Positions 7,216-59,652 of a DNA stretch of 64,000 nt are shown here, piece after piece. Position numbers and translations under genes: made by a program. Position 1 is the stretch's first letter; every line of letters begins with the position of its first letter. The notes below the pieces were generated by a model. It saw only the letters and a list, made by a program, of their open reading frames with translations. It made no database searches and was not told the DNA's origin. The DNA comes from Onchidella celtica (lineage: Eukaryota > Mollusca > Gastropoda > Systellommatophora > Onchidiidae), in contig OZ007579.1 of NCBI GenBank assembly GCA_963931925.1, positions 28,051,981 through 28,115,980 on the forward strand, in the 5' to 3' direction.

Positions 7216-7330
7216 GGTTAGGATTCTTTCAGAACTATAATAAGAATTTACTTGGACATGGAAGTCTAAGCATCTCTTCATACATACAAGTAGATTTAAA
7301 AGTTCTTTCAGGCCTGTAGGTTCTACCAAA
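7216..7330. repeat. Left remnant of a degenerate tandem array, split by the LTR element
   Basis: Contains the array landmarks AGGATTCTTTC, GGACATGGAAGTCTAAG and TTCAGGCCTGTAG seen repeatedly at 16903-17540. Joining position 7330 to 16907 (removing the LTR dimer and one CAAA copy) restores a continuous unit: CCTGTAGGTTCTACC + CAAA-GGATTTACTC + AAACATGGAAATCTAAG. So the array predates the insertion. Confidence 0.75.
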
Positions 7331-9800
7331 TGTTGGATGAACTACGAGTGGCTAATGTGGTTACTGCGTGGGTTCAATAGTAACTCCCTTAAGGATACAC
7401 AGGATTAACAAACACAGGGTTCTGCTGGCAATCTTATTTATTCAAAAAGCCTAACAAAGGTATCACTACCAACAAAAAAAAAGCCCAACCAGCCATAAGC
7501 TGGAACAAGAGAAAAAGACGAAAATATGATTAGGATATAATGACAACATTAATCAGGCAATCAATGGTGGACATACATAGTAATAGTATTAAGTATTAAA
7601 TCAAACAACCACAATATAATATAGAATTTAAGCAATAACCAACTGGATATGTATGCATGGAATAAAATAGCGCTAAGGTTAATGAATAACAACTACAAGT
7701 GGCTATATCATATACACAAGGAGTTTCCTAGTACACTGGCAACATAAACTAATTAATGTACTAATCAAAGTATGAAGGACATAACAAATGAAGGGGCAAG
7801 AACACAATAGTTTCGCTCCACTGAGCCGGTGTACAACACATCCAGAGTGGCCATTCCATTTAATAACGCAGTGGCCAACATGGCCCACTGACCGTCCATA
7901 ACACAGACGCTGCATCCCAATGCAGGCCATCCTCATAGGCCCACTCCCATTATTAGTACTAACCCGCCCCAGGGCTATTGTATTGGTTACTTCCCTTCCC
8001 AATCGATACTGAAGGGTCATGCCCTTTGACCTTAGCCGCGGAGCTATGCCGCCAGGCTAACATGTGTATGACACACCACTAGATACATAAAGTAATGTGT
8101 ACATTCCTTAAAATGAAACTGTCCTTCACACACTTACGAAACTCATATAGAAGCATAATACATCTGGATAACTATAATGCATGCACATGATATATATATA
8201 TATGTCGGCGAGACTCATTGCAACATGTGTAGACTCACTGAAACATTGTTCATCCACCGCCGCACATAGAACAATCCTGGGGCTCACCCATGTGAGGCCC
8301 ACTAATTTATACATCTCCAATACATGTAATTAATTACACATCTTAAACATTAAGCACACAATCACACTGCTCTCTATAGCATAGTGGTACTGGCAAGGTA
8401 CACAAATACCCGTAATACAATCAAGCGTATAGTGCCGCCCGCTGTAACATAAGCCATCCACATCAACATGTCAGGAAATCCTCACTGCCCACCACAACAA
8501 GGCAATGCTACACATACACTATATATAGGCACACAAGCAAATCTTGATAGCTTGGTTAGCGAGCCATCATTATCATCTAGCACCGCAAACGTTAACTTTG
8601 ACAATAAAGTCACAACATCAAGACACTGCGCTGCATCGCGCATCCTACACGTCCAATGACAATGGCAATTACCGTTGAGCCGGACTCATAATGGTCTCTG
8701 TAGATCAGCATTCTCTACGTGGCATCCAAGAAAAGGGGGGGGGGGTGCGCAAATTAAAGTCACTTCTAATATAATAGTCTCCAACTTACCCAAAGTTTCT
8801 CTGCTACTGGCGCAACTGGACTAGGCCATGTTTTGGGCGAGGCGCGCCACGGCAGGCCGCCGCCGGCCTAGGTTCACTGTGCTGTCGGCTCTTGTCTCTG
8901 CGTCTTTGATGGAGTGTGTCGACCACTCGAACCGCATCTTATTTATGAGCCCGCGCGGACGTCCGAGAGAGCTATTACGTAGCCCGTGTTGCACAAGTGA
9001 AAGGCTCGGACATTGAGTCCAGCCCGACAACATAACCGGTTAGGGTCCTAACACAATCGAATTTACAGTACGGTTAAAAGGGTGCACACAAAAGTCAATT
9101 AGGTATCCCAGTAAACTGCAGAAATTACTCTAACGACCCCTCCAGCAATAATTGAATAAATTTGACCCAGGTTGGATTTATCGGGGATAACATGCGTCTA
9201 ACTCATAGTTTGCTTTAAATCCGAGATCCTCTTATTAATCATTTCAATAGGACACGTGCATCAAAGTACAACGAAATTGGTACCATTATAAAGTGGAAAC
9301 TTGCTGCTAAAATTCTAACTGACTACTTATACCAGAAACTCGGTAGTAGTTTTAATATAAATTTTCAAAGTGTCAGGACTAACAACATTCGACAATTTTG
9401 TGCGGGATACTTTCGTCCATTAATACGACGTATCTCCATTGATAACAAACGTTATCATGAGTACCCATTTTGTACCGATAGGGTATTGTCTACTCTCAAA
9501 AATGAATTCGGGTTCCCGTCTTTCTGTCGGTGGATAACAACGAAGGAGCGAGTTGTAAGAAACTCAAAGCCATGATATAAGAGTTGGAAGCCCGGTACAT
9601 TTCCAACTGACCAATCAAAATGCGCGCTTTTCACCGTGATGTGAATAACGGGTCCCGCGCTAGTATTACAAGGGAAATAATCCAATTAATGGTACTCGGC
9701 CAAGTGCCCATAAACTACTATGAGTGGCCGTCCCTCACTCACGCACCAGAGTTACCATGAAAGCACATATTAAAAATAGAAAATCGTTCATCCTCTCACA
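7331..9800 (-). repeat. LTR a (3'-most in element orientation)
   Basis: 2470 bp. It ends (plus-strand left side) at TGTTGGATGA directly after the CAAA target duplication, and on its right edge meets the polypurine tract of the internal region. Confidence 0.85.
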
Positions 9801-10881
9801 TTCTCCCCTGCTAAGTCACGTAGTCCCTTACGTGACACATACATGTACATCAATTCAAAGGTTTACAAAAGACCACTGAAGGTACAATCAAACTCTAAGG
9901 GGCTATGATACCATCACTTAGAGTAGAACAATTGCAAATTACGCACAGTGAACTGAAGTACAACAATGGTCCATCCTCTTTATAACTACTAACAGGTGGC
10001 GTGAACCGGCTAAGTTACTACTGGCATCCTGAAGATGTACACAACAGTCTCAGCTCTGGCTGTAGTAAGTTACATCATATGGACAAAACAACAGGTCCCA
10101 GACCTGCAACGGTGGTCCCAGACCACTATCAGGGTTAACGTAGGATCGAACAGTACAAAAAAAGACAATATGCTATAAGGGCACTAGTGCAATGAAAAAG
10201 GTAAGGTCAACATAGGCATTAAAAGTAATTGTAACTAAGCTGTGGAGAAAGCTAACATGGGCATACTCTCTAACTTAAAATCTTGAGGCGGAGCTCCCTT
10301 GGATTCGGTGGTCTATCATCTGGCCTGATGGAAACTAGGGGGATCTTGATGGGTACGCTCCCCTGCTCTTTCTGCACTCACCGTCAATGTCTAATGTCAA
10401 TCACTAATAAGAGTCATAGGTCTAATCTCTGGGGTTGTCGGTGGGGGCAGCTGGACGTGGGGGGCAGCTGGACCGCTGCACAGGAGGTAGGGGCTGTAAA
10501 GTTCTCAACCCATGTTGAGGGTCTGGTTGGGCTGGAGGTGGCTGGCAAGGGTGGTGGGCTGGGAGTACCAGACACTGGTCGACGCAGGCTGTGGGGGCGG
10601 ATGTTGCGGATACGTGTAGATTGCGGGATGAAATACCCGCAACGGGTCCCTGTTGGGTCCCTGTTGACTGCAGTGGGATGGGTGGTGTACACAGGACTGG
10701 GATACAGGTCCTGAATCTTGAGTTGACGTTGGAGGGCGTTGGTCTTCGTGGCTCCATGGTTCCTATGGGGTGGGGCAGGGGTTGGCTGGCTGGCTGGGCT
10801 TCAAACTAAAAATTTCCATGGCTGGGTTCTCTACACTACAAACTAACCCTTCTGTGTATCCCACTTCTTGACACCAGAAAA
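9801..10881 (-). mobile_element. Internal region of the LTR dimer, unit 2
   Basis: 1081 bp; by eye it matches the other internal region throughout, including the Pro-rich minus-strand frames (10414-10757). It has the same primer-site and polypurine positions, and no pol domain. Confidence 0.6.
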
Positions 10882-13352
10882 TGTTGGATGAACTACGAGT
10901 GGCTAATGTGGTTACTGCGTGGGTTCAATAGTAACTCCCTTAAGGATACACAGGATTAACAAACACAGGGTTCTGCTGGCAATCTTATTTATTCAAAAAG
11001 CCTAACAAAGGTATCACTACCAACAAAAAAAAAGCCCAACCAGCCATAAGCTGGAACAAGAGAAAAAGACGAAAATATGATTAGGATATAATGACAACAT
11101 TAATCAGGCAATCAATGGTGGACATACATAGTAATAGTATTAAGTATTAAATCAAACAACCACAATATAATATAGAATTTAAGCAATAACCAACTGGATA
11201 TGTATGCATGGAATAAAATAGCGCTAAGGTTAATGAATAACAACTACAAGTGGCTATATCATATACACAAGGAGTTTCCTAGTACACTGGCAACATAAAC
11301 TAATTAATGTACTAATCAAAGTATGAAGGACATAACAAATGAAGGGGCAAGAACACAATAGTTTCACTCCACTGAGCCGGTGTACAACACATCCAGAGTG
11401 GCCATTCCATTTAATAACGCAGTGGCCAACATGGCCCACTGACCGTCCATAACACAGACGCTGCATCCCAATGCAGGCCATCCTCATAGGCCCACTCCCA
11501 TTATTAGTACTAACCCGCCCCAGGGCTATTGTATTGGTTACTTCCCTTCCCAATCGATACTGAAGGGTCATGCCCTTTGACCTTAGCCGCGGAGCTATGC
11601 CGCCAGGCTAACATGTGTATGACACACCACTAGATACATAAAGTAATGTGTACATTCCTTAAAATGAAACTGTCCTTCACACACTTACGAAACTCATATA
11701 GAAGCATAATACATCTGGATAACTATAATGCATGCACATGATATATATATATATGTCGGCGAGACTCATTGCAACATGTGTAGACTCACTGAAACATTGT
11801 TCATCCACCGCCGCACATAGAACAATCCTGGGGCTCACCCATGTGAGGCCCACTAATTTATACATCTCCAATACATGTAATTAATTACACATCTTAAACA
11901 TTAAGCACACAATCACACTGCTCTCTATAGCATAGTGGTACTGGCAAGGTACACAAATACCCGTAATACAATCAAGCGTATAGTGCCGCCCGCTGTAACA
12001 TAAGCCATCCACATCAACATGTCAGGAAATCCTCACTGCCCACCACAACAAGGCAATGCTACACATACACTATATATAGGCACACAAGCAAATCTTGATA
12101 GCTTGGTTAGCGAGCCATCATTATCATCTAGCACCGCAAACGTTAACTTTGACAATAAAGTCACAACATCAAGACACTGCGCTGCATCGCGCATCCTACA
12201 CGTCCAATGACAATGGCAATTACCGTTGAGCCGGACTCATAATGGTCTCTGTAGATCAGCATTCTCTACGTGGCATCCAAGAAAAGGGGGGGGGGGGTGC
12301 GCAAATTAAAGTCACTTCTAATATAATAGTCTCCAACTTACCCAAAGTTTCTCTGCTACTGGCGCAACTGGACTAGGCCATGTTTTGGGCGAGGCGCGCC
12401 ACGGCAGGCCGCCGCCGGCCTAGGTTCACTGTGCTGTCGGCTCTTGTCTCTGCGTCTTTGATGGAGTGTGTCGACCACTCGAACCGCATCTTATTTATGA
12501 GCCCGCGCGGACGTCCGAGAGAGCTATTACGTAGCCCGTGTTGCACAAGTGAAAGGCTCGGACATTGAGTCCAGCCCGACAACATAACCGGTTAGGGTCC
12601 TAACACAATCGAATTTACAGTACGGTTAAAAGGGTGCACACAAAAGTCAATTAGGTATCCCAGTAAACTGCAGAAATTACTCTAACGACCCCTCCAGCAA
12701 TAATTGAATAAATTTGACCCAGGTTGGATTTATCGGGGATAACATGCGTCTAACTCATAGTTTGCTTTAAATCCGAGATCCTCTTATTAATCATTTCAAT
12801 AGGACACGTGCATCAAAGTACAACGAAATTGGTACCATTATAAAGTGGAAACTTGCTGCTAAAATTCTAACTGACTACTTATACCAGAAACTCGGTAGTA
12901 GTTTTAATATAAATTTTCAAAGTGTCAGGACTAACAACATTCGACAATTTTGTGCGGGATACTTTCGTCCATTAATACGACGTATCTCCATTGATAACAA
13001 ACGTTATCATGAGTACCCATTTTGTACCGATAGGGTATTGTCTACTCTCAAAAATGAATTCGGGTTCCCGTCTTTCTGTCGGTGGATAACAACGAAGGAG
13101 CGAGTTGTAAGAAACTCAAAGCCATGATATAAGAGTTGGAAGCCCGGTACATTTCCAACTGACCAATCAAAATGCGCGCTTTTCACCGTGATGTGAATAA
13201 CGGGTCCCGCGCTAGTATTACAAGGGAAATAATCCAATTAATGGTACTCGGCCAAGTGCCCATAAACTACTATGAGTGGCCGTCCCTCACTCACGCACCA
13301 GAGTTACCATGAAAGCACATATTAAAAATAGAAAATCGTTCATCCTCTCACA
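10882..13352 (-). repeat. LTR b (shared central LTR of the dimer)
   Basis: 2471 bp. It serves both as 3' LTR of the right unit and 5' LTR of the left unit. It differs from LTR a at about one substitution (A at 11366 against G at 7815) plus G-run length (12 against 11). Confidence 0.85.
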
Positions 13353-13361
13353 TTCTCCCCT
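13353..13361 (-). promoter_or_regulatory. Polypurine tract next to LTR b
   Basis: Minus strand AGGGGAGAA lies immediately before the LTR start TGTGAGAGG, the expected plus-strand primer position. The second copy is at 9801-9809. Confidence 0.65.
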
Positions 13362-14409
13362 GCTAAGTCACGTAGTCCCTTACGTGACACATACATGTAC
13401 ATCAATTCAAAGGTTTACAAAAGACCACTGAAGGTACAATCAAACTCTAAGGGGCTATGATACCATCACTTAGAGTAGAACAATTGCAAATTACGCACAG
13501 TGAACTGAAGTACAACAATGGTCCATCCTCTTTATAACTACTAACAGGTGGCGTGAACCGGCTAAGTTACTACTGGCATCCTGAAGATGTACACAACAGT
13601 CTCAGCTCTGGCTGTAGTAAGTTACATCATATGGACAAAACAACAGGTCCCAGACCTGCAACGGTGGTCCCAGACCACTATCAGGGTTAACGTAGGATCG
13701 AACAGTACAAAAAAAGACAATATGCTATAAGGGCACTAGTGCAATGAAAAAGGTAAGGTCAACATAGGCATTAAAAGTAATTGTAACTAAGCTGTGGAGA
13801 AAGCTAACATGGGCATACTCTCTAACTTAAAATCTTGAGGCGGAGCTCCCTTGGATTCGGTGGTCTATCATCTGGCCTGATGGAAACTAGGGGGATCTTG
13901 ATGGGTACGCTCCCCTGCTCTTTCTGCACTCACCGTCAATGTCTAATGTCAATCACTAATAAGAGTCATAGGTCTAATCTCTGGGGTTGTCGGTGGGGGC
14001 AGCTGGACGTGGGGGGCAGCTGGACCGCTGCACAGGAGGTAGGGGCTGTAAAGTTCTCAACCCATGTTGAGGGTCTGGTTGGGCTGGAGGTGGCTGGCAA
14101 GGGTGGTGGGCTGGGAGTACCAGACACTGGTCGACGCAGGCTGTGGGGGCGGATGTTGCGGATACGTGTAGATTGCGGGATGAAATACCCGCAACGGGTC
14201 CCTGTTGGGTCCCTGTTGACTGCAGTGGGATGGGTGGTGTACACAGGACTGGGATACAGGTCCTGAATCTTGAGTTGACGTTGGAGGGCGTTGGTCTTCG
14301 TGGCTCCATGGTTCCTATGGGGTGGGGCAGGGGTTGGCTGGCTGGCTGGGCTTCAAACTAAAAATTTCCATGGCTGGGTTCTCTACACTACAAACTAACC
14401 CTTCTGTGT

Positions 14410-14428
14410 ATCCCACTTCTTGACACCA
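14410..14428 (-). promoter_or_regulatory. Primer-binding site, tRNA-Leu-like (unit 1)
   Basis: Minus strand reads TGGTGTCAAGAAGTGGGAT, 5 nt inside the LTR end. It matches the common gypsy tRNA-Leu primer site TGGTGTCAGAAGTGGGAT except for one inserted A. Starting with TGG pairs with the tRNA CCA end. A second copy lies at 10858-10876. Confidence 0.65.
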
Positions 14429-14433
14429 GAAAA

Positions 14434-16902
14434 TGTTGGATGAACTACGAGTGGCTAATGTGGTTACTGCGTGGGTTCAATAGTAACTCCCTTAAGGATA
14501 CACAGGATTAACAAACACAGGGTTCTGCTGGCAATCTTATTTATTCAAAAAGCCTAACAAAGGTATCACTACCAACAAAAAAAAAGCCCAACCAGCCATA
14601 AGCTGGAACAAGAGAAAAAGACGAAAATATGATTAGGATATAATGACAACATTAATCAGGCAATCAATGGTGGACATACATAGTAATAGTATTAAGTATT
14701 AAATCAAACAACCACAATATAATATAGAATTTAAGCAATAACCAACTGGATATGTATGCATGGAATAAAATAGCGCTAAGGTTAATGAATAACAACTACA
14801 AGTGGCTATATCATATACACAAGGAGTTTCCTAGTACACTGGCAACATAAACTAATTAATGTACTAATCAAAGTATGAAGGACATAACAAATGAAGGGGC
14901 AAGAACACAATAGTTTCACTCCACTGAGCCGGTGTACAACACATCCAGAGTGGCCATTCCATTTAATAACGCAGTGGCCAACATGGCCCACTGACCGTCC
15001 ATAACACAGACGCTGCATCCCAATGCAGGCCATCCTCATAGGCCCACTCCCATTATTAGTACTAACCCGCCCCAGGGCTATTGTATTGGTTACTTCCCTT
15101 CCCAATCGATACTGAAGGGTCATGCCCTTTGACCTTAGCCGCGGAGCTATGCCGCCAGGCTAACATGTGTATGACACACCACTAGATACATAAAGTAATG
15201 TGTACATTCCTTAAAATGAAACTGTCCTTCACACACTTACGAAACTCATATAGAAGCATAATACATCTGGATAACTATAATGCATGCACATGATATATAC
15301 ATATATGTCGGCGAGACTCATTGCAACATGTGTAGACTCACTGAAACATTGTTCATCCACCGCCGCACATAGAACAATCCTGGGGCTCACCCATGTGAGG
15401 CCCACTAATTTATACATCTCCAATACATGTAATTAATTACACATCTTAAACATTAAGCACACAATCACACTGCTCTCTATAGCATAGTGGTACTGGCAAG
15501 GTACACAAATACCCGTAATACAATCAAGCGTATAGTGCCGCCCGCTGTAACATAAGCCATCCACATCAACATGTCAGGAAATCCTCACTGCCCACCACAA
15601 CAAGGCAATGCTACACATACACTATATATAGGCACACAAGCAAATCTTGATAGCTTGGTTAGCGAGCCATCATTATCATCTAGCACCGCAAACGTTAACT
15701 TTGACAATAAAGTCACAACATCAAGACACTGCGCTGCATCGCGCATCCTACACGTCCAATGACAATGGCAATTACCGTTGAGCCGGACTCATAATGGTCT
15801 CTGTAGATCAGCATTCTCTACGTGGCATCCAAGAAAAGGGGGGGGGGTGCGCAAATTAAAGTCACTTCTAATATAATAGTCTCCAACTTACCCAAAGTTT
15901 CTCTGCTACTGGCGCAACTGGACTAGGCCATGTTTTGGGCGAGGCGCGCCACGGCAGGCCGCCGCCGGCCTAGGTTCACTGTGCTGTCGGCTCTTGTCTC
16001 TGCGTCTTTGATGGAGTGTGTCGACCACTCGAACCGCATCTTATTTATGAGCCCGCGCGGACGTCCGAGAGAGCTATTACGTAGCCCGTGTTGCACAAGT
16101 GAAAGGCTCGGACATTGAGTCCAGCCCGACAACATAACCGGTTAGGGTCCTAACACAATCGAATTTACAGTACGGTTAAAAGGGTGCACACAAAAGTCAA
16201 TTAGGTATCCCAGTAAACTGCAGAAATTACTCTAACGACCCCTCCAGCAATAATTGAATAAATTTGACCCAGGTTGGATTTATCGGGGATAACATGCGTC
16301 TAACTCATAGTTTGCTTTAAATCCGAGATCCTCTTATTAATCATTTCAATAGGACACGTGCATCAAAGTACAACGAAATTGGTACCATTATAAAGTGGAA
16401 ACTTGCTGCTAAAATTCTAAATGACTACTTATACCAGAAACTCGGTAGTAGTTTTAATATAAATTTTCAAAGTGTCAGGACTAACAACATTCGACAATTT
16501 TGTGCGGGATACTTTCGTCCATTAATACGACGTATCTCCATTGATAACAAACGTTATCATGAGTACCCATTTTGTACCGATAGGGTATTGTCTACTCTCA
16601 AAAATGAATTCGGGTTCCCGTCTTTCTGTCGGTGGATAACAACGAAGGAGCGAGTTGTAAGAAACTCAAAGCCATGATATAAGAGTTGGAAGCCCGGTAC
16701 ATTTCCAACTGACCAATCAAAATGCGCGCTTTTCACCGTGATGTGAATAACGGGTCCCGCGCTAGTATTACAAGGGAAATAATCCAATTAATGGTACTCG
16801 GCCAAGTGCCCATAAACTACTATGAGTGGCCGTCCCTCACTCACGCACCAGAGTTACCATGAAAGCACATATTAAAAATAGAAAATCGTTCATCCTCTCA
16901 CA
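14434..16902 (-). repeat. LTR c (5'-most in element orientation)
   Basis: 2469 bp with TG...CA ends on the minus strand. Compared with the other two copies it has ATATACATATAT instead of a pure AT run near 15295, A instead of C near 16421, and a 10-G run near 15838. Open frames in it recur identically in all three LTRs, but none resembles a known protein; I do not call them genes. Confidence 0.85.
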
Positions 16903-41578: not shown

Positions 41579-41875
41579 GTTTCAAGCCCAGGGCAGTTAT
41601 GACAATCATTCTTCCATGTTACAAACTCGCAACAAACCACCATATTTGTTTAAAAATTTCACACAAACACTTTTCCTCTTTGAAACTATGCATTACTCTT
41701 CTGTACAAATATAAACCTGTAAGAAAATGGCAAAGGTCAATGGACAGTTTACAAAAAAAGAAGAAAAAAAGCAGTAGATAATTAAGCACAGAGTCCACAG
41801 ATGGGCCACACTTTGTGTATGAACTGTGATGCTGTTTTCAAAAACAGATTGTTTCATGATACTGGAATAAGCCTC

Positions 41876-42746
41876 TGTCACAAATCCCAGACTGGGAGAT
41901 GTAATAGTTATGACAGGACGACAATCACGAACAAACACGTTTAACACTTAACAAAACAATCCATCAGACTCACACATTTATTAAACATAATTATACATAT
42001 AATAGCGCAATTACATATATTATATTATTGAAATGACTGCCGTACAACGGCCTTATTCTCACACACACGCTCCCTCGGATCCACAATCCGGTAGTTACTC
42101 CTAAAGGCACTTCGGCCTCAGCCTCTCCCCTCAGGGTCTTAATAGTACATTAATGATTCACTGGCACCGCAGTCTCTCAATATCACCTTCCTATTGTCAT
42201 ACACCTTAGCACTCCCCTAGCACCTCAGCGGGGCAATAACACGTTATTATTTCCATAGCCATCAACATGGCAACAACATAATATCAGTTCACTAGCCTAT
42301 CAACATGGCAACAACATAGTATCTCATTCACTCTCATATCTACGTCCCTGTCCGTGGCCTGACTGCCACGACTTTATGTGCCTCTACTGTCCTGCACTGA
42401 CAGCCTCACTTCTGGCCTATGTGCGGCCTCCGGCCCTATGCTGGCCTATCCCCTGTGCTCATCGAGGTGGCTCTGCGGCCCGTCCCCGACACCAGTCATA
42501 ACTGGAAAGACTCTCACTAGTCTTCTCGACTGCTCCCTTTTATCTCTGCCCGATGGGCTATTATTCACAGATCCGCTCCCTAGGACCTTCTAACTTGCAG
42601 TGATAGTTATACAGCGCTTTCGCCTCCTTCAGACCCCGCCCCACTACTACTCACAACAGCACGCTTAACTTGCTGTCTACTGTGAGTCCTTACTCTACAC
42701 CCGCTCTGTAGCAATCCCCTTAATTGCACTCACTCCACTCGTGACA
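41876..42746 (-). repeat. 3' LTR of the Gmr1-like element
   Basis: Downstream LTR in element orientation; follows the polypurine tract at about 42747-42768. Same length as the other LTR. Confidence 0.92.
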
Positions 42747-42768
42747 TCATCCCCCACCCCAAAAAAAT
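42747..42768 (-). promoter_or_regulatory. Polypurine tract of the Gmr1-like element
   Basis: The minus strand reads T-run, then GGGGTGGGGGATGA, then the LTR start TGTCACGAG. Purine-rich and abutting the LTR, as required for plus-strand priming. Confidence 0.7.
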
Positions 42769-43104
42769 TAATGCAATTAATTTCAAATCGCATCAAGATG
42801 ACTGTCAACGAGTGAGCGTGAGCAATACCTACACTAAAAAAAAACTGACCTAGCAGTTCCCCTAGTATATAAAATACCGAAATCAGGGGAAAATATGGGG
42901 ATCAATATGGTCTGAAATATGCATATATGTGTCACCTCATGAATAGCTAACTAAACACAATATCTAATACAGAATCAAAAACCATTCAACCTATCAACCA
43001 TTCTTCATATCATATTTATAATGTCAATATTTTAAAGTCGACTTATTCACACAGATCCTGTCAATGTTCCTGTCCTCCGATGTATAAGCTCCTGAAATCT
43101 TCCC

Positions 43105-45491
43105 CTAGGCTCGACTAAGGTAGTCGGCGATATGATTGCTGGTTCCTGGAATTGGTTGAATAACGAAGGTGTACGGCTGTAAAGCCAATGCCCATCTAGA
43201 CAAGCGTGGGCTGGACGAACGATTCTTCGACAAAAATGTCAGTGGCTTGTGGTCCGTCTGGATACAAAATTCTCGTCCCATGAGATAACGTCCTAGTTTC
43301 TGGACGGACCAGACAATGGCAAGACACTCACGCTCTATCACAGAATACTTTCTTTCTCTCTGCAATAACTTCCTACTGACATAACATACAGGATGGAGAC
43401 ATTCGTTCTTCTCCTGTAGAAGACAAGCGCCGACACCAGAGTCCGACGCATCCGTTCTGAGGATAAAATTAGATCGAAAATCGGGTAATATCAGAATGGG
43501 TGACGATGATAATGCTGTCACCAAATTATCAAATGCTGTCTGACATTCAGACGTCCACTGGACCTTATCGGGTTGTCCCTTCTTAGTAAGGTCAGTAAGA
43601 GAAGATGACAAGGAGGAAAAATTTGGAATAAACTTTCTGTAATAATTTAAAATTCCCACTAAGCTTCTGACTTGTTTCTTTGTTTTTGGGATTTGCAACC
43701 CTACTAACTTGTCAATTTTTGTTTCTTCAGGTCTCTGAACACCACTACCCACAATATGTCCTAAGAATACTATCTCAGGACATGCCAACTCCATCCTTGC
43801 GGGTTTAGCAGTTAACCCAAAATGACGTAATCGTTGAAAAATTACTGTTAGTGTCTGAGTATGATCAGACCATGTCGACGTATGGCATGCTATATCGTCA
43901 AAGAATGACACGACATTAGGTATGTCCTTCAACACCAATCTCATTAATCGTGCAAACGTCGCTGGTGCGTTTACCAACCCAAATGGCATGACCTTAAATT
44001 GGAATAATCCAATGGGCGTTTGGAACGCCGTGTATTGTTTAGACTCCTCAGTAAGCGGGATTTCCCAATACCCTTTCGTCAAATCTATCTTGGAAAACCA
44101 CGTGGACCCGGCCAATGAAGCTATTAATTCCTCCTGAAACGGAATAGGCTCCCTATCGCCTACCGTAATAGTGTTCAATCTTCGAAAATCAATACAGAAC
44201 CGCACCGATCCATCACGTTTCTTCACGAGGACGATGGGTGATGAATACGGCGATGTTGATGGTTCTATCACATCTAACTTCAACATTGACTCAACTTCCT
44301 TTATGACCCTATCCCTCGAAGAAAAAGGCAACGGATACGGTCTAAGAAATACTGGCTTATCGGAAGTCAACTTTATTTGGTGCTGGATCACCGTAGTGCG
44401 ACCCGGCAAATCCGTAACAACATCCGGAAATGACGCTAACAGGGTCTCAAGTTCCCTACTCCTTGAACTCGTAAGGTCAGGGTTAATTTTTACGTCCCTG
44501 TAACCTTGTGTCGGAGTTAACTCCGGCAATTGAATTTGTAACTCCTCCTGCGCCTCGGTGTCGCTTACGTCACAGTCCAACTGGTCTACGACCCCCGTAC
44601 AAGCAGTAGAGAAGACAGTCTCCTCTGGTCTTGTCTGTGCACACAGATACTGTGGTCTCTCATAAAATCTCTGTAGCATATTAACATGGAAAACCTTACT
44701 CGCTCCATCAATGTGGATAGCGTAATCTACCTTTGAAACAACTCGCTCAATAACATAAGGGCCTTTCCATGTCATCAATAACTTATTATGGTCCGTAGGT
44801 AACAACAACAGAACCTTGTCTCCTGGCTTAAAAATTCTCAGTTTGGACCCTCTATCTTTATAGTCTTTTGCTCTTTTCGAAGCGATACCAGAAGCTTCTT
44901 GTGCTATAGTGCGCGCTGAAGATAGTCTTTCTCTTAAATCAACAAGGTACTGAAACACCGAAATCTGCTCATCGTCTCCCGATGATGGCGACGTCATCAT
45001 GTCCGGAAGAACATCAGTCGGGCCCCTAGGACTACGACCGTACATCATTTCGAACGGCGAGAATCCCGTTGACTCCTGCCGTACCTCTCTGTACGCGAAT
45101 AACACTGCAGGGATATATCTATCCCAATCTTTAGGGCGATCAGCAGCTACCTTACGCAGCATCGACTTCAACGTCGAGTTCAATCTCTCGCACATGCCAT
45201 TAGCCTGCGGATGATAAGGGGTGGTAGTGATGGGTTGTATACTGAATAAGCGGAACAATTCCTTCATCATCTGCGACGTAAATTGCGCGCCCCTATCAGA
45301 CAGAATTTGCTCTGGTATTCCTACCCTAGCGAAAATTGCAAACAACGCTTCCGCGACTGCCTCAGACGTTATGGTCCGCAGAGGAACCGCCTCTGGCCAT
45401 CTCGTAGCATTACATATGACCGTTAAGAAAAATCGATTCCCCCTATCGGTCGCTGGGTGAATGGGGCCAACAAGGTCTATCGAGACGAGCC
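43105..45491 (-). pseudogene. pol: Partial gypsy pol: integrase core - reverse transcriptase - RNase H
   Basis: The open frame runs from the LTR edge to the stop at 43105, about 795 codons. No ATG begins it; the frame is truncated at its 5' side. Integrase: first Asp in SIDLVGP, second in LSDRGAQFTS, Glu in GMCERLN. Spacing is the classical D-x35-E, so the catalytic triad is complete, followed by a GPY-like segment. RT: VKKRDGSVRFCIDFRRLN, SKIDLTKGYWEIP, MPFGLVNAPATF and catalytic FFDD (in place of Y[IL]DD). RNase H: RTDASDSG, ERECLAI, TDHKPL and the final Asp in NHIADYLSRA. All three catalytic centres look intact with no stop or frameshift. What is lost is gag, protease and the HHCC domain, so the copy cannot move alone. 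Confidence 0.92.
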
Positions 45492-45496
45492 CCCAG

Positions 45497-46367
45497 TGTC
45501 ACAAATCCCAGACTGGGAGATGTAATAGTTATGACAGGACGACAATCACGAACAAACACGTTTAACACTTAACAAAACAATCCATCAGACTCACACATTT
45601 ATTAAACATAATTATACATATAATAGCGCAATTACATATATTATATTATTGAAATGACTGCCGTACAACGGCCTTATTCTCACACACACGCTCCCTCGGA
45701 TCCACAATCCGGTAGTTACTCCTAAAGGCACTTCGGCCTCAGCCTCTCCCCTCAGGGTCTTAATAGTACATTAATGATTCACTGGCACCGCAGTCTCTCA
45801 ATATCACCTTCCTATTGTCATACACCTTAGCACTCCCCTAGCACCTCAGCAGGGCAATAACACGTTATTATTTCCATAGCCATCAACATGGCAACAACAT
45901 AATATCAGTTCACTAGCCTATCAACATGGCAACAACATAGTATCTCATTCACTCTCATATCTACGTCCCTGTCCGTGGCCTGACTGCCACGACTTTATGT
46001 GCCTCTACTGTCCTGCACTGACAGCCTCACTTCTGGCCTATGTGCGGCCTCCGGCCCTATGCTGGCCTATCCCCTGTGCTCATCGAGGTGGCTCTGCGGC
46101 CCGTCCCCGACACCAGTCATAACTGGAAAGACTCTCACTAGTCTTCTCGACTGCTCCCTTTTATCTCTGCCCGATGGGCTATTATTCACAGATCCGCTCC
46201 CTAGGACCTTCTAACTTGCAGTGATAGTTATACAGCGCTTTCGCCTCCTTCAGACCCCGCCCCACTACTACTCACAACAGCACGCTTAACTTGCTGTCTA
46301 CTGTGAGTCCTTACTCTACACCCGCTCTGTAGCAATCCCCTTAATTGCACTCACTCCACTCGTGACA
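45497..46367 (-). repeat. 5' LTR of the Gmr1-like element
   Basis: Upstream LTR in element orientation. On the minus strand it ends GATTTGTGACA directly before CTGGGGGCTCGTC. Confidence 0.92.
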
Positions 46368-46372
46368 GCCTC

Positions 46373-49998: not shown

Positions 49999-52900
49999 TA
50001 TATATTTCATGTCAGGCCAGAGTTTTCTGCTATTGTATGACAGTACACAATACAGCCTGCTACTGTCACCCCCACTGTCTTGTGGGTCATCTCGGGAGAG
50101 AGGAAGACTAGGGGAAGGTAACCCTGAATACAAATACCACACTGCCTTGTGTGTTGCTATGATAGCAAAGGCTATGGGAGTAAACCCAGACAGAAAATCA
50201 GGAGTGGAGACCCGAAGGTGGTTGTCAGGGAGAACTGCATCAAATTGGCTTCCAGCATCTCCTGCAGCCGGATTAGTTCCAAATGTATTGACCTGGTCTC
50301 TCCCTTGGGTTTAACTAGAATGGCAGAGAGAGGGGTGGTGCCTCTGGGCAAAGCACCATCTCTTAAAAATAGCCCAGGCAAGGCAGCAAAACGAGGAGGC
50401 GTTTGCTCGGGCTTGGCAAGCGTCTGTCTCTCCTCTATAAGCCCACCCATTTCCGATTTGGAGAGGACACTCCAGCCATCCGTTACGGATGGGCACAACA
50501 CGGGAGGTGGCAGTTACCGGTGATAAGCTCAATCCATTTGGCGTACGGATGAGCGCCAGGGGTCCCCTCTGTCGGTGGGAGCGGCTTTTCAGCTGCATTG
50601 ATCAACTACCGCCCGCCGTAACCTGGGCAGCCCCCAGGCAGTTGGGTGTTGTTCCGCCACGTCAGCCTGCTTCATAAGGTGGTTGGAGCTAGACCAAAAG
50701 TCGAAAAGCTGACGTAAAGTGTGCACCTGGCAAAAACAGAAAAATACTAAAACTTGGTACCTGGAACGTCAGAACAATGCGCCCAGGCTTGCAACAGCAA
50801 GATCTCACTGATATTGACTCCATCAGGAAATCCCAAATTATTGATCGAGAACTTCAGCTACTAAACATCGACATCGCTGCCCTTCAAGAAACTCGACTTC
50901 CCGACTCCGGGTCAGTCAAAGAAGAAAACTACACCTTCTTCTGGCAGGGCCTTAGCAGCGAACAGCCGAGAATCCACGGCGTGGGCTTCGCCATAAAAAA
51001 CTCCCTTATCAATTCGATCGCAACTCCAATTGGAGTGTCAGAACGCATCATGACACTCAGACTGAACACCCGGTCTGGTTTTACCAACATTATCTGTGTC
51101 TATGCCCCAACACTTACCTCCTCTGACGAAACCAAAGACATTTTCTACGAGGCATTGCAGAGGACTCTCCACAACATCCCTCTCACCGAAGGCCTGCTAA
51201 TTCTGGGTGACTTTAACGCTCGAGTGGGAGCAGATCACTCCGCATGGCCAAAGTGCATTGGGCACTTCGGCATTGGCAACATCAACGAAAACGGGCAGCG
51301 CCTTCTGGAGCTATGCTCCGTAAACTCATTATGTGTTACAAACACGTACTTTGACCTTAAGAGATGCCAAAGAACATCATGGCGCCATCCCAGGTCTGGC
51401 CATTGGCATCAATTAGATCTTATTCTCTCAAGGAGGAAGAGTTTGGGCTGTATAAAAATAACTCGTTCCCTCCACAGTGCTGACTGTGACACCGACCATG
51501 CACTGGTAGTCAGCAAAATCAAAATTTCGGCCAAGAAAATATACAGATCAAAAGCCCCTTCAATCCCTAAGATCAATGTAACAGCAATCAGAGATGAATC
51601 AAATAGAAAGTCATTTGAAAAGTTATTTGTTGAAAGCATGGATAATGTCACCCAATGTGACTCGGTAGATGAAACATGGAACACTCTCAGTTCAAAAATT
51701 CATGACTGTGCCATCAAGTCTTTTGGACAGCATAAAGTTTCAAACAACGACTGGGTAGCCCAGAACAGCGAAATTCTCCTACCTCTCATTGAGCAAAAGA
51801 AATCTGCTTTCAATGAGTATAACAAAAATTGCAATCAGAGTACAAAAACTTGTTTGAAAAATGCAAAAGCTAAACTTCAGCTGGAGGTAAGACGTTGCGC
51901 CAACAAATACTGGACAGACTTGTGTAACAGCATACAAGAGGCAAATGAAAAGGGAGATATGAAAACCGCCTTTAGTCAGATGAAAGTAGCTCTTGGGCCA
52001 ATCATCACCAAAAGCGCCCCACTTAAGTCTGTAAATGGTGAACCCATCACAGATAAAAATGAACAACTGAATAGGTGGGTAGAGCATTACTCTCTGTTGT
52101 ATTCAACTGAGAAAAATATTCCACCAGATTTTGAGGAACACCTCCAAAAACTGCCAATAATGGCCGAACTTGACGCTGAACCTTCCTTAGTCGAGCTTTC
52201 CAATGCAATCGACCACCTGTCTGCTGGAAAAGCCACAGGAAGTGACAACATTCCTGCAAAGGTATTAAAAGACCTAAAAGGCCCACTATTACCACACCTG
52301 TATAATCTGTTACTGCAGTGTTGGAAAGAAGGCGTGATACCACATGATATGAGAGACGCCAAAATTGTCACACTTTACAAGAACAAAGGAGACAAAGGCG
52401 ACTGCAACAACTATCGAGGCATATCCCTCCTCAGCATTACTGGAAAGGCTTTTGCTCGCGTCATCCTCTGCCGCCTTCAACAACTGGCGGAAAAAGTCTT
52501 ACCAGAAACACAATGTGGCTTTCGAAGCAAACGATCAACTATTGACATGATATTTGCACTTCGGCAAATCCAAGAAAAATGTAAAGAACAAAACAGGCCG
52601 CTTATAACATGCTTTGTGGACCTAACAAAGGCTTTCGACACCGTAAGCCGATCTGGCCTGTATGCAGTCCTTAAATCCATAGGCTGTCCACCAACATTGC
52701 TAAAACTTATTGCATCCTTCCACACTGACATGAGGGCATGTGTCAACTTTGAGGGCTGCACATCCAATTCATTTGCTGTAAACAGCGGTGTGAAGCAGGG
52801 ATGTGTTCTTGCTCCTACCTTATTTGGTATATATTTTGCAGCCCTACTCAAGAATGCCTTTGGTCAATGTTCAGGTGGAGTACTTATTAACACCAGAGTG

Positions 52901-53961
52901 GACGGCTCCATTTTTAATGTTGCCAGACTAAAAGCAAAATCTCGTACAGAGCATATTATGTTACAAGAGCTCCTCTTCGCAGATGATGCTGCAATAGTGG
53001 CCCACGATGAAACCACGCTCCAGGCTCTCATCAATAGCCTTGCCAAAGCCTGTGACAAATTCATGCTAAAGATCAGTGTCTCAAAAACTGTAGTTTTGAC
53101 ACAAGGCTTGCGAAACCCCAAACCAATCATGCTGAATGGCTCTCCTCTGGAGCAAGTGGGAAAATTCTGCTACCTAGGCTCAACCATCAATGGTAGCACA
53201 GACATAACAACTGAAATAAATGCCAGAATAGGAAAGGCGGCCACAGCTTTTGGCAAACTCTCAAAAAGGGTGTGGAACAATAGCAAGCTGACCATCAAAA
53301 CAAAGGTACTCGTGTACCAAACTTGCGTCCTAAGCACCCTGCTGTATGGCTCAGAGACATGGACCACCTACTCCAAACATGAAAGATCCCTCAACTCCTT
53401 CCACCTGCGCTGCCTACGCAAAATTCTCAAGATCAAGTGGCAAGACAGGATCTCAAATATCGAAGTTCTGAGCCGAGCCAACATTCCATCAACTCAGGCT
53501 CTCCTAGGCAAAAAAAGACTGCGGTGGCTTGGACATCTCCACCGTATGGAAAATGATCGCATCCCCAGACAAATTCTCTACGGGGAACTTGCTACTGGCA
53601 ACCGACCCAGAGGTAGGCCACATCTGCGATTCAAAGACACTTGCAAGGTCACGATGAAAGCATTCAACATCGACCCCAATGAATGGGAGAACCTTGCAAA
53701 TGATCGAAGCAGATGGAGACAAAAATTGCGCAGTGGCACGCTCTCAATAGACTTCAAGGCAAAAGAAACATACCTGACAAAACGACAGAGGCGGAATGAA
53801 AACACTCGCCAAAGTGAACCCAAAAGACTGACCTGCAATCACTGCCATCGCACTCTCGGGTCAAACATTGGTAGAATAAGCCACGAGAGAAGCTGTCAGT
53901 CAAAATGAAAGTGAATATTCTAGCTGCTAAGACCGTCTGTAAAGACGCTAAAGGCCATATA
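49999..53961 (+). mobile_element. Full-length LINE 1 (APE-type non-LTR retrotransposon)
   Basis: The 5' end GTCAGGCCAGAGTTTTCTGC (50011) matches the 5' end of LINE 2 (GTCAGGTCAGAAAAATCTGC at 55361). A roughly 690-bp 5' region precedes the endonuclease-RT frame, and the 3' UTR is only about 50 bp, ending in an (AT)n run. Candidate target duplication TATATATTGCC at 49988-49998 and 53962-53972; it is AT-rich, so less certain than that of LINE 2. Clade not assigned. Confidence 0.8.
50693..53908 (+). CDS. LINE 1 polyprotein: AP endonuclease - reverse transcriptase - C2HC zinc finger
   Basis: One uninterrupted frame. From the first ATG (50777) there are 1043 codons, but the conserved endonuclease N-terminus KLGTWNVRT lies upstream of that ATG, within the open stretch after a TAG at 50690-50692. 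True initiation is therefore upstream or non-AUG. Numbering from 50777: endonuclease Glu in ALQETRL (38), Asp/Asn in GDFNARVG (about 145), Asp-His in DTDHALV (about 240). RT: NYRGISLL (about 543), FVDLTKAFDTV (about 612), catalytic FADD (about 734). C-terminal finger CNHC...HERSC (about 1019-1038), spaced C-x2-C-x12-H-x3-C. The protein nicks target DNA and primes cDNA synthesis from its own RNA. No stop or frameshift, so possibly active. Confidence 0.9.
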   Translation, partial: TKSRKADVKCAPGKNRKILKLGTWNVRTMRPGLQQQDLTDIDSIRKSQIIDRELQLLNIDIAALQETRLPDSGSVKEENYTFFWQGLSSEQPRIHGVGFAIKNSLINSIATPIGVSERIMTLRLNTRSGFTNIICVYAPTLTSSDETKDIFYEALQRTLHNIPLTEGLLILGDFNARVGADHSAWPKCIGHFGIGNINENGQRLLELCSVNSLCVTNTYFDLKRCQRTSWRHPRSGHWHQLDLILSRRKSLGCIKITRSLHSADCDTDHALVVSKIKISAKKIYRSKAPSIPKINVTAIRDESNRKSFEKLFVESMDNVTQCDSVDETWNTLSSKIHDCAIKSFGQHKVSNNDWVAQNSEILLPLIEQKKSAFNEYNKNCNQSTKTCLKNAKAKLQLEVRRCANKYWTDLCNSIQEANEKGDMKTAFSQMKVALGPIITKSAPLKSVNGEPITDKNEQLNRWVEHYSLLYSTEKNIPPDFEEHLQKLPIMAELDAEPSLVELSNAIDHLSAGKATGSDNIPAKVLKDLKGPLLPHLYNLLLQCWKEGVIPHDMRDAKIVTLYKNKGDKGDCNNYRGISLLSITGKAFARVILCRLQQLAEKVLPETQCGFRSKRSTIDMIFALRQIQEKCKEQNRPLITCFVDLTKAFDTVSRSGLYAVLKSIGCPPTLLKLIASFHTDMRACVNFEGCTSNSFAVNSGVKQGCVLAPTLFGIYFAALLKNAFGQCSGGVLINTRVDGSIFNVARLKAKSRTEHIMLQELLFADDAAIVAHDETTLQALINSLAKACDKFMLKISVSKTVVLTQGLRNPKPIMLNGSPLEQVGKFCYLGSTINGSTDITTEINARIGKAATAFGKLSKRVWNNSKLTIKTKVLVYQTCVLSTLLYGSETWTTYSKHERSLNSFHLRCLRKILKIKWQDRISNIEVLSRANIPSTQALLGKKRLRWLGHLHRMENDRIPRQILYGELATGNRPRGRPHLRFKDTCKVTMKAFNIDPNEWENLANDRSRWRQKLRSGTLSIDFKAKETYLTKRQRRNENTRQSEPKRLTCNHCHRTLGSNIGRISHERSCQSK

Positions 53962-55348: not shown

Positions 55349-58300
55349 TGTTTTGTTTGTCAGGTCAGAAAAATCTGCTACTGGTAACATGTAATCCAGT
55401 ACAACCTGTTTCATGAACTGGTACGCTAGCATGGTATCAGTGGGCGTGCACCTGTCGGTGCAAACGGCCAGGGCGGAGGAGGTTTCATCTAACCCAACGG
55501 CCACATGCTAGGGCACAATGTGACCCTCAGTACTTGAGTCCTTCATATTGGCCCCCGGTAGCGGTGTGGTCATAGGCTTGTTTGCCTAAATCACAGACGA
55601 AGAATTGAGCAAACTTCCCGGACGCAGCTTCGAAGCTGGCGGCAGCAGGCCAGTGGTTGATTGATAGGGCAGATGGCAATATACCGTCACTCTGGCCTGG
55701 ATATCGTGACACAGAGCATCCACCAGTTTTGGTGTTCTTTGGTTTGGGTCTTTCACCCTAGTCAGTTGGGACTGCGAGGCTGTGGAGTAGCCTACAGGCA
55801 GCCGGTCAGGCAATATGACTGTCCCTCTGGCATCCTCCTGCACCTGGATACATTTCCAGTCGTCTTGACCCTGTCTTGCCACTTGGATAAGTTGTGTCCA
55901 GGCGAGAGAGTGAGTCTGATGTTTGCGCAGCTCTTTCTCACTAAAAACAAATTCTTTGCGCCAGTCTTAACACTCACCTCGTCTTCTTTCATCTTTGTCT
56001 CGTCTTCTTTCCTCTCAAAATTCCAACGGCGATGGGCGAGTGCGGTGGCAGCAGGTTTGGATAGACTGGAAGCTGTTAGCACAGACCTACACGTTGGTGG
56101 CTGTGGGCTATGGTCGCTTCATCGTCGATTGAAGTGGAGGCGTGGGGAGGCAGCACCCACAGTAGCTGAGCAGCCTTATTTAAGGATAGCACTGCTCACC
56201 TCAACTGAGGAAGGGGCTAGAAAAGGTGCCCTAAAGAAAGCCCACTTCACATCACCCTGACTGGTATACCGCGACAAGTGGGGATCCCTTTTTGCGGTCG
56301 AAACAAAAAGAAATTCAGCTTACTCAGGCTAGGAGCCTGGAATATACGCACACTACAGGACAACTCAAACAACCCGGAAAGACGCACTGCACTTATTGCC
56401 ATTGAGCTCAGCAGGTACAACCTGGACATAGTGGCACTCAGTGAGACCAGACTCCCTGATAGTGGCCAACTCAAAGAGCTCAGTGGTGGATACACCTTCT
56501 TCTGGAAAGGCAAGGGTGCAGTCGAACCGAGACAGCATGGTGTTGGGTTTGCAATTAAAAATGACCTTGTCAGAAACTTGCAGTCCATGCCAATTGAAAT
56601 AAATGACAGGCTAATGACACTCAGGATCCCAGTTGGGAAAAGCCAGTCAGCCACCCTCATTAGCGCATATGCGCCCACCATGACAAACCCAGATGAAGCC
56701 AAAGACAAGTTCTATTCTGATCTAGAATCTGTCATATGCTCTGTCCCGGCAGCTGATAAGCTGATTCTCTTGGGGGACTTCAATGCTAGGGTTGGCTCCG
56801 AAATCTCAGCGTGGCCAAATGTTTTGGGCCCTCATGGAGTTGGTTCATGCAATAACAATGGGTTGCGCTTACTTACTTTGTGCGCTGAATTTGGCCTGTT
56901 CATTACCAACACAAATTTTAGTCTCCCCGTGAGAAACAGAACGTCATGGATGCATCCCCGCTCAAAGCATTGGCATCTCATAGACTATGTCATTGTGAGG
57001 AAGACTGACAGAAAGGATGTCCTTGTAACAAAGGCGATGTGTGGTGCCGAGTGTGGAACTGACCACAGACTCATTGTTTGCAAGCTCAGACTAACATTGA
57101 GGCGCAATAGACGCCCTCAAGGGAAAGCGCCACCTAAACGCCTAAATGTTTCAAAACTCTGCTCAGCTGAGAAACAGAGCGAGCTCTCATCAGAACTCTC
57201 CTCAAAATTGGATTGCGTGACTTTTGACCCTGAGAACATTGAACAGAGCTGGACTGACCTAAATACGACTGTACACTCTTGCGCCAGCAGCACAGTTGGT
57301 TTTCCTGTCCGCAAGCATCAGGACTGGTTCAATGATAATAATAATGAAATCAAAGTGCTCATCAAAGAAAAAAATAGTCTCATCCAAGCTCACTGCAGTG
57401 ACCCCTCTTCCACAGCAAAAGCTGATGCACTGCGTGCATGTAAGGGTGTACTCCAGAAGAAGCTGAGGGAAATGAAAAATGACTGGCTTGAAGAGCGAGT
57501 AAGAGAAACTCAGAAATATGCCGACACAAACAACACTAGAAAGTTCTTTGAGAGCCTCCGAGCTGTGTTTGGACCATCCCGCTCTGGCACTACGCCACTT
57601 CTTGCGTCAGATGGTTCAACACGCATTGTTGAATTGAATGCCATAATTCAGCGTTGGGCAGAACATTTCGGAGGTGTGCTAAATCGGCCATCAAATATAA
57701 ATACTGAGTCCATTGACCGCCTCCCTCAGACTCCTATTAATGCAGCTCTTGCCAAGCCATTCACAGCAAATGAGACCCGAACTGCCACAAATCAGATGTC
57801 CTTTAACAAATCACCAGGCGTGGATTCAATTCCTGCTGAGGTGTATGCCTTCGGTGGAGAAAAGCTTATTGAAAGGTTGACCGAGTTGTTCAATCATATG
57901 TTGAAAGCAGGGAAGCTGCCACAGGACTTCAAAGATGCTTCAATCATCCATCTGTACCAAAACAAAGGGGACAGCCAAGTCTGTGACAACCATCGGGGAA
58001 TCTCTCTACTTTCAATTGCTGGCAAAATATTGGCAAGAATGCTTCTGAATCGCCTTCTTGATCACCTCTCGTCAAATGACTTGCTTCCCGAGAGCCAATG
58101 TGGCTTTCGTAAAGAGAGGGGAACGGCGGATATGATTTTTGCTGCCAGACAGATTCAGGAAAAATGCATGGAACAAAATAAAGCGCTGTATATCACATTT
58201 GTTGACCTCACAAAAGCATTTGACACAGTGTGTCGTGAAGGCCTCTGGAAAATCTTGGCGAAGTTTGGGTGTCCACCCGAATTCATCACAATAGTGCGCC

Positions 58301-59652
58301 AGTTTCATGATGGCATGCAAGCTGCAGTCAAAAGCAACGGCAGTGTTTCAGAGCCCTTTGCTGTCACAAATGGGGTAAAACAGGGTTGTGTCTTAGCCCC
58401 AACTCTGTTCAGCATCATGTTCTCGGCAATGCTACAAGAAGCCTTTAGCTCTCCTCCTCAAGGGGTAAGCATCAAGTACCGAACTGATGGCAGTCTATTC
58501 AACCTCAGGAGACTTCAGGCAAAAACCAAAACCAAAAGTACTCAAGTCTGTGACCTACTATTTGCTGATGATTGTGCACTTCTGGCACACGATGAGGATA
58601 GCATGCAAAACTGTGTTGATAAGTTCTCTAGTGCCTGTGACAACTTTGGCCTCACAATAAGCACAAAGAAGACGGAAGTGCTCCATCAGCCTACTCCAGA
58701 CGACAAGTATCCTGTGACCCCAAATATCAAAGTCCATGACAGTCTTCTGAAGGTGTCGGAGAACTTCACCTATCTTGGCAGTACACTGTCTTCCGCGGCT
58801 CGTGTTGATACTGAAATTCTCTCAAGAATCAGCAAAGCCAGCTCTGCATTTGGCAGGCTTCGAAAGAGAGTATGGGATGTCGCCGGCATTCGCACAGACA
58901 CTAAGCTGAAAGTGTACAATGCTGTGGTCCTTCCCACCCTACTCTATGGGGCTGAAACCTGGACAGTGTACCAATCGCATGCCAGAAAGCTAAATCACTT
59001 TCATCTGGCCTGCCTTAGAAAGATCCTAAGGATCAAATGGCAGGATAAAATTCCAGACACTGAGGTCCTCAATCGTGCCAAGGAATTGAACATCTTCTGC
59101 CACCTGAAAAAAATTCATCTACGTTGGGCAGGACATGTTGTCAGAATGCCCGACTCCAGACTCCCTAAGCAAATCTTCTTCTCTGAGCTCTCCAATGGAA
59201 CGAGGAATGTTGGGGTCCCAAAGAGACGTTACAAAGACACTCTCAAGCAATCACTGAAGGCCTTTGCCATTGATGTGAGTGAGTGGGAAAAGCTCTCGCT
59301 TGATCGTGCAAATTGGAGGGCGGCCCTTACCAGAGGCAGCAAAGCATGGGAAGCTGACAGAGTCCAGCAGGCTATCAAAAAAAGAGAACGGCGCAAGAAA
59401 AGGCCCAGTGGTACTGAACCAACGGAGCACTCTTGTCATTTATGCGGAAGGGTCTGCAGGGCAAAAATAGGACTTATCAGTCACATGAGAAGCCATAAGT
59501 CATGAAAGAACAGTCTTTCCATTCTGTCCTCTGTGTCCTTTAGTTCTCTTTATTGTCCATGTGTTGAAATTCTCAACAATTTCTGTTCTTTATTCCTCTG
59601 GTGTTGTTAAGGTCATCATCATACCTGATGGACGAACTATTACTATTATTAC
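55349..59652 (+). mobile_element. Full-length LINE 2 (APE-type non-LTR retrotransposon)
   Basis: Bounded by a perfect 15-bp target-site duplication TAACATTGTTTCAAA (55334-55348 and 59653-59667). The 5' end resembles LINE 1. An approximately 870-bp 5' region contains a 199-codon non-AUG frame (55661-56260) of unknown status. The 3' UTR (59506-59652) ends GGTCATCATCATACCTGATG then a (TATTACTAT) microsatellite-like tail instead of poly(A). 4304 bp in all. Confidence 0.9.
56221..59505 (+). CDS. LINE 2 polyprotein: AP endonuclease - reverse transcriptase - C2H2 zinc finger
   Basis: An uninterrupted frame after a TAG at 56218-56220. The first codon able to serve as a near-cognate start before the endonuclease is GTG 56278; no ATG precedes the N-terminus LGAWNIRT. 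Numbering from 56278 (1075 codons): ALSETRLPDSG (about 51-61), GDFNARVG (about 166), GTDHRLIV (about 260), RT FVDLTKAFDTV (about 641), FADD (about 760). The C-terminus holds CHLCG...SHMRSH with classical C-x2-C-x12-H-x3-H spacing (about 1053-1073). Same domain plan as LINE 1 with roughly half the residues shared by eye, so the two are separate subfamilies. No disabling mutation seen; a candidate active element. Confidence 0.9.
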   Translation, partial: KRCPKESPLHITLTGIPRQVGIPFCGRNKKKFSLLRLGAWNIRTLQDNSNNPERRTALIAIELSRYNLDIVALSETRLPDSGQLKELSGGYTFFWKGKGAVEPRQHGVGFAIKNDLVRNLQSMPIEINDRLMTLRIPVGKSQSATLISAYAPTMTNPDEAKDKFYSDLESVICSVPAADKLILLGDFNARVGSEISAWPNVLGPHGVGSCNNNGLRLLTLCAEFGLFITNTNFSLPVRNRTSWMHPRSKHWHLIDYVIVRKTDRKDVLVTKAMCGAECGTDHRLIVCKLRLTLRRNRRPQGKAPPKRLNVSKLCSAEKQSELSSELSSKLDCVTFDPENIEQSWTDLNTTVHSCASSTVGFPVRKHQDWFNDNNNEIKVLIKEKNSLIQAHCSDPSSTAKADALRACKGVLQKKLREMKNDWLEERVRETQKYADTNNTRKFFESLRAVFGPSRSGTTPLLASDGSTRIVELNAIIQRWAEHFGGVLNRPSNINTESIDRLPQTPINAALAKPFTANETRTATNQMSFNKSPGVDSIPAEVYAFGGEKLIERLTELFNHMLKAGKLPQDFKDASIIHLYQNKGDSQVCDNHRGISLLSIAGKILARMLLNRLLDHLSSNDLLPESQCGFRKERGTADMIFAARQIQEKCMEQNKALYITFVDLTKAFDTVCREGLWKILAKFGCPPEFITIVRQFHDGMQAAVKSNGSVSEPFAVTNGVKQGCVLAPTLFSIMFSAMLQEAFSSPPQGVSIKYRTDGSLFNLRRLQAKTKTKSTQVCDLLFADDCALLAHDEDSMQNCVDKFSSACDNFGLTISTKKTEVLHQPTPDDKYPVTPNIKVHDSLLKVSENFTYLGSTLSSAARVDTEILSRISKASSAFGRLRKRVWDVAGIRTDTKLKVYNAVVLPTLLYGAETWTVYQSHARKLNHFHLACLRKILRIKWQDKIPDTEVLNRAKELNIFCHLKKIHLRWAGHVVRMPDSRLPKQIFFSELSNGTRNVGVPKRRYKDTLKQSLKAFAIDVSEWEKLSLDRANWRAALTRGSKAWEADRVQQAIKKRERRKKRPSGTEPTEHSCHLCGRVCRAKIGLISHMRSHKS

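Follow-up and report, generated by a model that had tools for sequence, protein, structure and literature searches.

The 64,000-nucleotide (nt) window analysed here (contig OZ007579.1, positions 28,051,981 to 28,115,980) contains on its minus strand a long terminal repeat (LTR) retrotransposon, in which the integrase is encoded upstream of the reverse transcriptase (RT). This element (41876..46367) very probably represents a high-copy Ty3/gypsy family of Gmr1-like layout that was recently active in a euthyneuran gastropod, and is a young copy with an internal deletion. The integrase-first order is genuine and is not a rearrangement of this copy. In the 1.14 Gb genome that was searched for junctions and copies, integrase and RT share a strand, with integrase upstream, in 19/19 other family copies examined by tblastn of both pieces. 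These copies comprise all five relatives with fetched pieces that reach the integrase-RT region and 14/14 further loci (16 loci minus two that are the window itself); the piece of a sixth relative (L039-L041) stops short of this region. The integrase core is present in 12 of the 19 and only the C-terminal part in the other seven, and the RT is broken in one (L069). None of them carries RT before integrase, the arrangement that the original prediction had named as telling against it.

The window element is bounded by two minus-strand LTRs of 871 bp, the 5' LTR at 45497..46367 (termini TGTCAC...GTGACA) and the 3' LTR at 41876..42746, which are 870/871 identical in pairwise comparison and differ only at position 42230. 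Directly outside the LTR ends are the two copies of a target-site duplication, GCCTC (41871..41875 on the left, 46368..46372 on the right). The purine-rich tract GGGGTGGGGGATGA (42747..42760, minus strand) adjoins the 3' LTR, and TGGGGGATGA also precedes the LTR in three relatives. The near-identical LTRs, the duplication and the tract bear out the claim that they bound one young insertion, and the reading of the window copy as a young single insertion is supported. Between the LTRs lie 2,750 bp, which contain, in the list of open reading frames, a 797-aa open frame holding integrase, RT and RNase H (43105..45498, minus strand). Along this frame the Pfam matches follow in the order rve (4.6e-12, profile positions 7-102), RVT_1 (1.4e-29) and RT_RNaseH (5.6e-37). 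The integrase (44509..45486, minus strand) extends from within the catalytic core to the C-terminal module, with catalytic D8 and D68-x35-E104 and a GPY motif at residue 246; we take this C-terminal module to be of the GPY type. The RT (43750..44226, minus strand; Pfam and a PDB match) has FDD at residue 533 and is followed by RNase H (43171..43557, minus strand; RT_RNaseH_2 / RT_RNaseH in Pfam). The best PDB match of the RT-RNase H is Ty3 (4ol8, E 1e-79). The domains and motif positions agree with the predicted single minus-strand frame of integrase core, gypsy-type RT and RNase H. This frame was also thought to end just before the 3' LTR; it does lie upstream of that LTR, but its stop is 358 nt away. 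Scanning the window against Rfam and for tRNAs gave no result, and an IMG/VR scan gave no relative.

Other families of the same genome were compared with the window family. One gypsy family carries RT upstream of integrase at 8/8 loci, which are counted as one family because comparison of two of them gave identities of 99% (integrase) and 95% (RT). Its identity to the window family is 28-30% for integrase and RT. A second family with a SCAN domain in gag (family B) shares 50% (integrase) and 49% (RT) identity with the window family, and the one copy examined (L094, C15:2584800-2587300) is integrase-first, with a SCAN match in the same frame 1.6 kb before it. The matching pairwise identities of both domains to the other families suggest that an integrase-RT chimaera is unnecessary. 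Integrase stands ahead of RT or of RT remnants in 3/3 SCAN-gag families looked at.

In two integrase-complete relatives, gag, a weakly matching protease, integrase, RT and RNase H lie in one frame, of 1,555 and 1,537 aa by coordinates. Their proteins were searched against Pfam in halves, and both have a SCAN match in gag (PF02023; 3.2e-8 and 6.5e-8, above the Pfam cut-off), CCHC knuckles and an Integrase_H2C2 match (~1e-19), the last of which is deleted from the window copy. Among the best 40 scored LTR places (listed together with one fragment, from 3,123 candidates), 14 other LTR pairs have a spacing of 6,353-7,028 bp, compared with 3,621 bp in the window, and 10 of the 40 have no partner within the listing. 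The LTRs differ by 0-1 substitutions in 7/7 pairs measured, the window included, with a 5-nt gap in one pair and a 1-nt gap in another, and 5-bp target duplications flank 6/6 other pairs checked. At the 91 RT places scored from 15,193 candidates, the open frames are 1,535-1,598 aa long in 42 and exactly 664 aa in 27. The window family looks recently active. Copies of the family also occur head-to-tail with a spacing of ~6.7-7.1 kb (C1:1660834-1674985, C8:46680168-46688626 and C5:952955-961103), presumably sharing LTRs.

The window copy itself has no gag, protease or integrase zinc finger and has lost most of the primer-binding site. It reads LTR end, C, TGGGGGCTCGTC and then TCGATAGACC..., so that position 12 of the primer site is joined directly to the integrase core. 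The primer-site remnant (45484..45495, minus strand; 12 nt) reads WGLV in frame and has the deletion breakpoint at its end. In two integrase-complete relatives, the zinc finger is followed by ...IPTVSEPFKKVSIDLVGP at the matching place of the integrase. Because both read KKVSIDLVGP there, the breakpoint microhomology common to the primer site and the integrase side is GTC only, and the first 4-5 residues of the window frame (HWGLV) derive from the primer site and not from integrase. The same reading rules out that the integrase gene has a long stretch of homology to the 12-nt primer site. Since the LTR edge and integrase residue 5 are 3,326 and 3,300 bp apart in two relatives and 11 bp apart in the window, ~3.3 kb is missing from the window copy. 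The deletion junction occurs at one place genome-wide, namely the window (≤2 mismatches; reversed control 0). Among 121 scored integrase places (from 13,902 candidates), the match starts at residue 5 in 120 and at residue 1 in the window alone. The window copy is thus a private 5' deletion derivative, a point missed by the original prediction, whose Gmr1-like pol order is otherwise upheld structurally by the domain order and the SCAN-like gag. One relative, L058 (C3:31646035-31647435), has an integrase match from residue 10 in a 794-aa frame, perhaps through a separate 5' lesion.

The sequence TGGGGGCTCGTC is the start of the primer-binding site of the window family. A 26-mer spanning the edge of the LTR and the primer site was found at 4,765 places (≤3 mismatches; reversed control 0), and GGGGGCTCGTC is present in 19/20 leaders taken from upstream of integrase places on the plus strand. 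The tRNA complementary to the primer site TGGGGGCTCGTCC is presumably of the tRNA-Pro type. In 10 of the 20 leaders the LTR end and primer site occur in tandem as 2-4 copies of a 22-23-bp unit (TTGTGACA C/T TGGGGGCTCGTCCG), and one integrase-deleted relative has six such units (loci L044, L046, L048, L050 and L071-L090). Tandem primer sites are named in none of the literature matches listed, as far as titles and the beginnings of abstracts tell.

The anatomy is consistent with ordinary LTR retrotransposition. Integrase-complete copies would be transcribed from the LTR and translated as one polyprotein, which would deliver integrase ahead of RT; reverse transcription would be primed at TGGGGGCTCGTCC by the complementary tRNA, and integration would produce the 5-bp duplication. 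The window copy lost ~3.3 kb between primer-site position 12 and the integrase core at the shared GTC, presumably through template switching when it was last reverse-transcribed or through end joining once it had inserted. Autointegration and misannealing in plus-strand transfer were considered as special causes of the deletion and were not kept, as the 3-nt shared stretch does not single either out. The window copy is probably dead: it would not be expected to prime or to encode a particle, because primer-site position 13 through the start of integrase is lost.

The Gmr1 clade of Ty3/gypsy reportedly goes back to Goodwin and Poulter in 2002. Membership of the window family in Ty3/gypsy is indicated by a Ty3-type RT-RNase H (RVT_1 and RT_RNaseH, best PDB match Ty3 RT), by DD35E and a GPY motif in the window integrase and by the H2C2 finger in 2/2 relatives searched; we take the H2C2 finger, the DD35E core and the GPY-type module to be Ty3/gypsy integrase labels. 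Within Ty3/gypsy, a Gmr1-like affiliation is well supported structurally and is suggested as the best filing because of the integrase-first order together with the SCAN-like gag. With Gmr1 the family shares gypsy-type RT and RNase H, integrase upstream of RT and the SCAN-like gag domain. It differs, as far as a comparison by description goes, in its euthyneuran gastropod host, in the loss of the 5' half from the window copy and in the tandem LTR-end/primer-site units of some copies. Yeast Ty3 is the best solved-structure match for the RT-RNase H, and its polyprotein also matches the integrase; unlike the window family, it has RT before integrase (7q5b chain, RT match at 583-1009 and integrase match at 1169-1449). 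The likeness to Ty1/copia is limited to the integrase-first order. The window RT matches RVT_1 and best Ty3, the integrase best matches those of foamy virus and Ty3, and neither is of copia type, so that membership in Ty1/copia was rejected. Troyka was rejected as well: the available text on this group gives CG...CG termini and a 3-bp duplication (PMC12440569), whereas the window family has TG...CA termini and a 5-bp duplication.

It is extremely improbable that the integrase-first order results from a rearrangement of the window copy or from a chimaera of two elements. A real rearrangement does affect the 5' end of the window copy, but it consists of a deletion of sequence upstream of the integrase core, and all 19 other copies, like the one copy of the ~50%-identical family, have integrase and RT arranged in the same way. 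The identities of integrase and RT also match each other, whether measured to the ~50%-identical family or to the RT-first one, and the original view that the order does not come from adjacent fragments holds. Only slightly less improbable is that the window's deleted form is a mobile non-autonomous sub-family and not a dead private copy. Both LTRs, the target-site duplication and the purine-rich tract are kept, and another deletion form of the window family is present at 748 places; against this, the junction of the window has a single copy in the genome, and in the element the leader is gone and no more than 12 nt of the primer site remain.

An independent origin of the integrase-first order within gypsy, in an element working like Gmr1 and standing outside the Gmr1 clade, is unlikely, though it has a better claim than the two accounts above. 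It draws on the Gmr1 placement being one by structure, and on a 2018 mollusc survey with 21 gypsy clades, in the available text of which Gmr1 is absent from the clade table and is named once in the background (PMC6238403). The SCAN-like domain in gag of 2/2 relatives searched speaks for the Gmr1-like affiliation instead, and convergence in two shared features, the order and SCAN, is unlikely. In the accessible parts of a review, homology is described between the SCAN domain and the C-terminal capsid portion of the gag of Gmr1-like elements (PMC4592553; also PMC3424704), and those of a frog survey place SCAN in Gmr elements only (PMC4131045). Several observations weigh against the preferred reading of a Gmr1-like Ty3/gypsy family. 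The best PDB matches of the window integrase are foamy-virus integrases, with Ty3 next (7q5b, 1.9e-16), and the aspartyl protease match in the two relatives is weak, below the Pfam cut-off. The sampled family copies are 91-100% alike over matched RT segments and are not independent tests of deep order; family B, with one copy, is the only independent integrase-first family with an RT. The Gmr1-like assignment would rest on structure, and not on a tree against Gmr1, crustacean or annelid reference elements. As a Gmr1 marker the SCAN-like gag may be less telling, since the gag of the RT-first family stands outside the comparison, and in the frog survey just over 50% of Gmr elements have SCAN, according to its available text (PMC4131045).

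Two other deletion forms are both multiplied in this genome, unlike the deletion form of the window. The form of the window family with the integrase core deleted has its junction at 748 places (≤2 mismatches; control 0). The core is missing in seven copies examined (L045, L047, L049, L053, L054, L056 and L059), all of which have RT after the junction, and in three copies read the part upstream of the junction is in another frame. In a sister SCAN-gag family, known from two pieces of different copies (L095 on C5 and L096 on C2), an RT-deletion junction is present at 132 places (≤2 mismatches; control 0). The L095 integrase has all three catalytic residues and shares its frame with a SCAN match that lies 1.6 kb further upstream, within a 1,086-aa frame there. 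An LTR is present in L096, together with what we take to be an 18-nt primer site, and in both pieces a pre-RT remnant is joined to the RNase H C-terminus. Some of the 132 places stand in head-to-tail arrays with a spacing of 4,757-4,758 bp (C2:41447109-41466173).

It is possible, though somewhat doubtful, that these are complementary parasitic forms, one with the integrase core deleted and the other with SCAN gag and integrase and the RT deleted, both spread on enzymes provided in trans by complete Gmr1-like copies. On this proposal we infer that the missing enzymes reach the deletion forms in trans, and because RT-RNase H is the last module, its loss would leave the remainder of the polyprotein undisturbed. 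Trans-supply of this kind is named in none of the literature matches listed from a narrow word search, by title or the beginning of the abstract. The amplified integrase-less and RT-less forms would allow a test of whether separate pol modules are supplied in trans.

The host was placed from contig C43, a mitochondrial genome of 13,988 bp (COX1 by Pfam). Its gene order is cox2, atp6(-), nad3(-), nad4, cox3(-), nad2, cox1, nad6, nad5, nad1, nad4L, cytb, with all genes but COX1 named by eye. We take this to be the euthyneuran gastropod order, and the host is therefore a protostome. The original prediction had suggested that a protostome host would extend the range of Gmr1-like elements; such elements are already in print. 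As far as the available text of these papers goes, four crustacean Gmr1-like elements (GyRex4, Gychoro2, GyMaja1 and GyLiva4) were called the first in protostomes in 2013 (PMC3587641), and the annelid element LGF3 of Lamellibrachia luymesi followed in 2021 (PMC8220671). Like the window family, these are protostome gypsy elements, and the authors of the two papers link them to the Gmr1 clade; their hosts are crustaceans and an annelid and not a gastropod, and the likeness is one of description only. The 2018 survey is the only mollusc retrotransposon paper naming Gmr1 among the literature matches listed, judging by the parts available, and the integrase-first order could occur in some of its MolGy clades (PMC6238403). 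At most, a gastropod Gmr1-like element adds a host phylum to a kind already described. The window family offers a clean, high-copy, recently active example of an integrase-first gypsy element in a gastropod. No paper among the literature matches listed has SCAN together with molluscs, and a SCAN-like capsid in a protostome bears on the origin of vertebrate SCAN domains.

Elsewhere in the window, two long open frames (50693-53908 and 56221-59505; 1,071 and 1,094 aa) have endonuclease and RT domains of the long interspersed nuclear element (LINE) type. At 7328-16902 the window contains a tandem array of ~2.7 near-identical repeats of a unit of 3,550-3,552 bp, which has a 146-aa frame.

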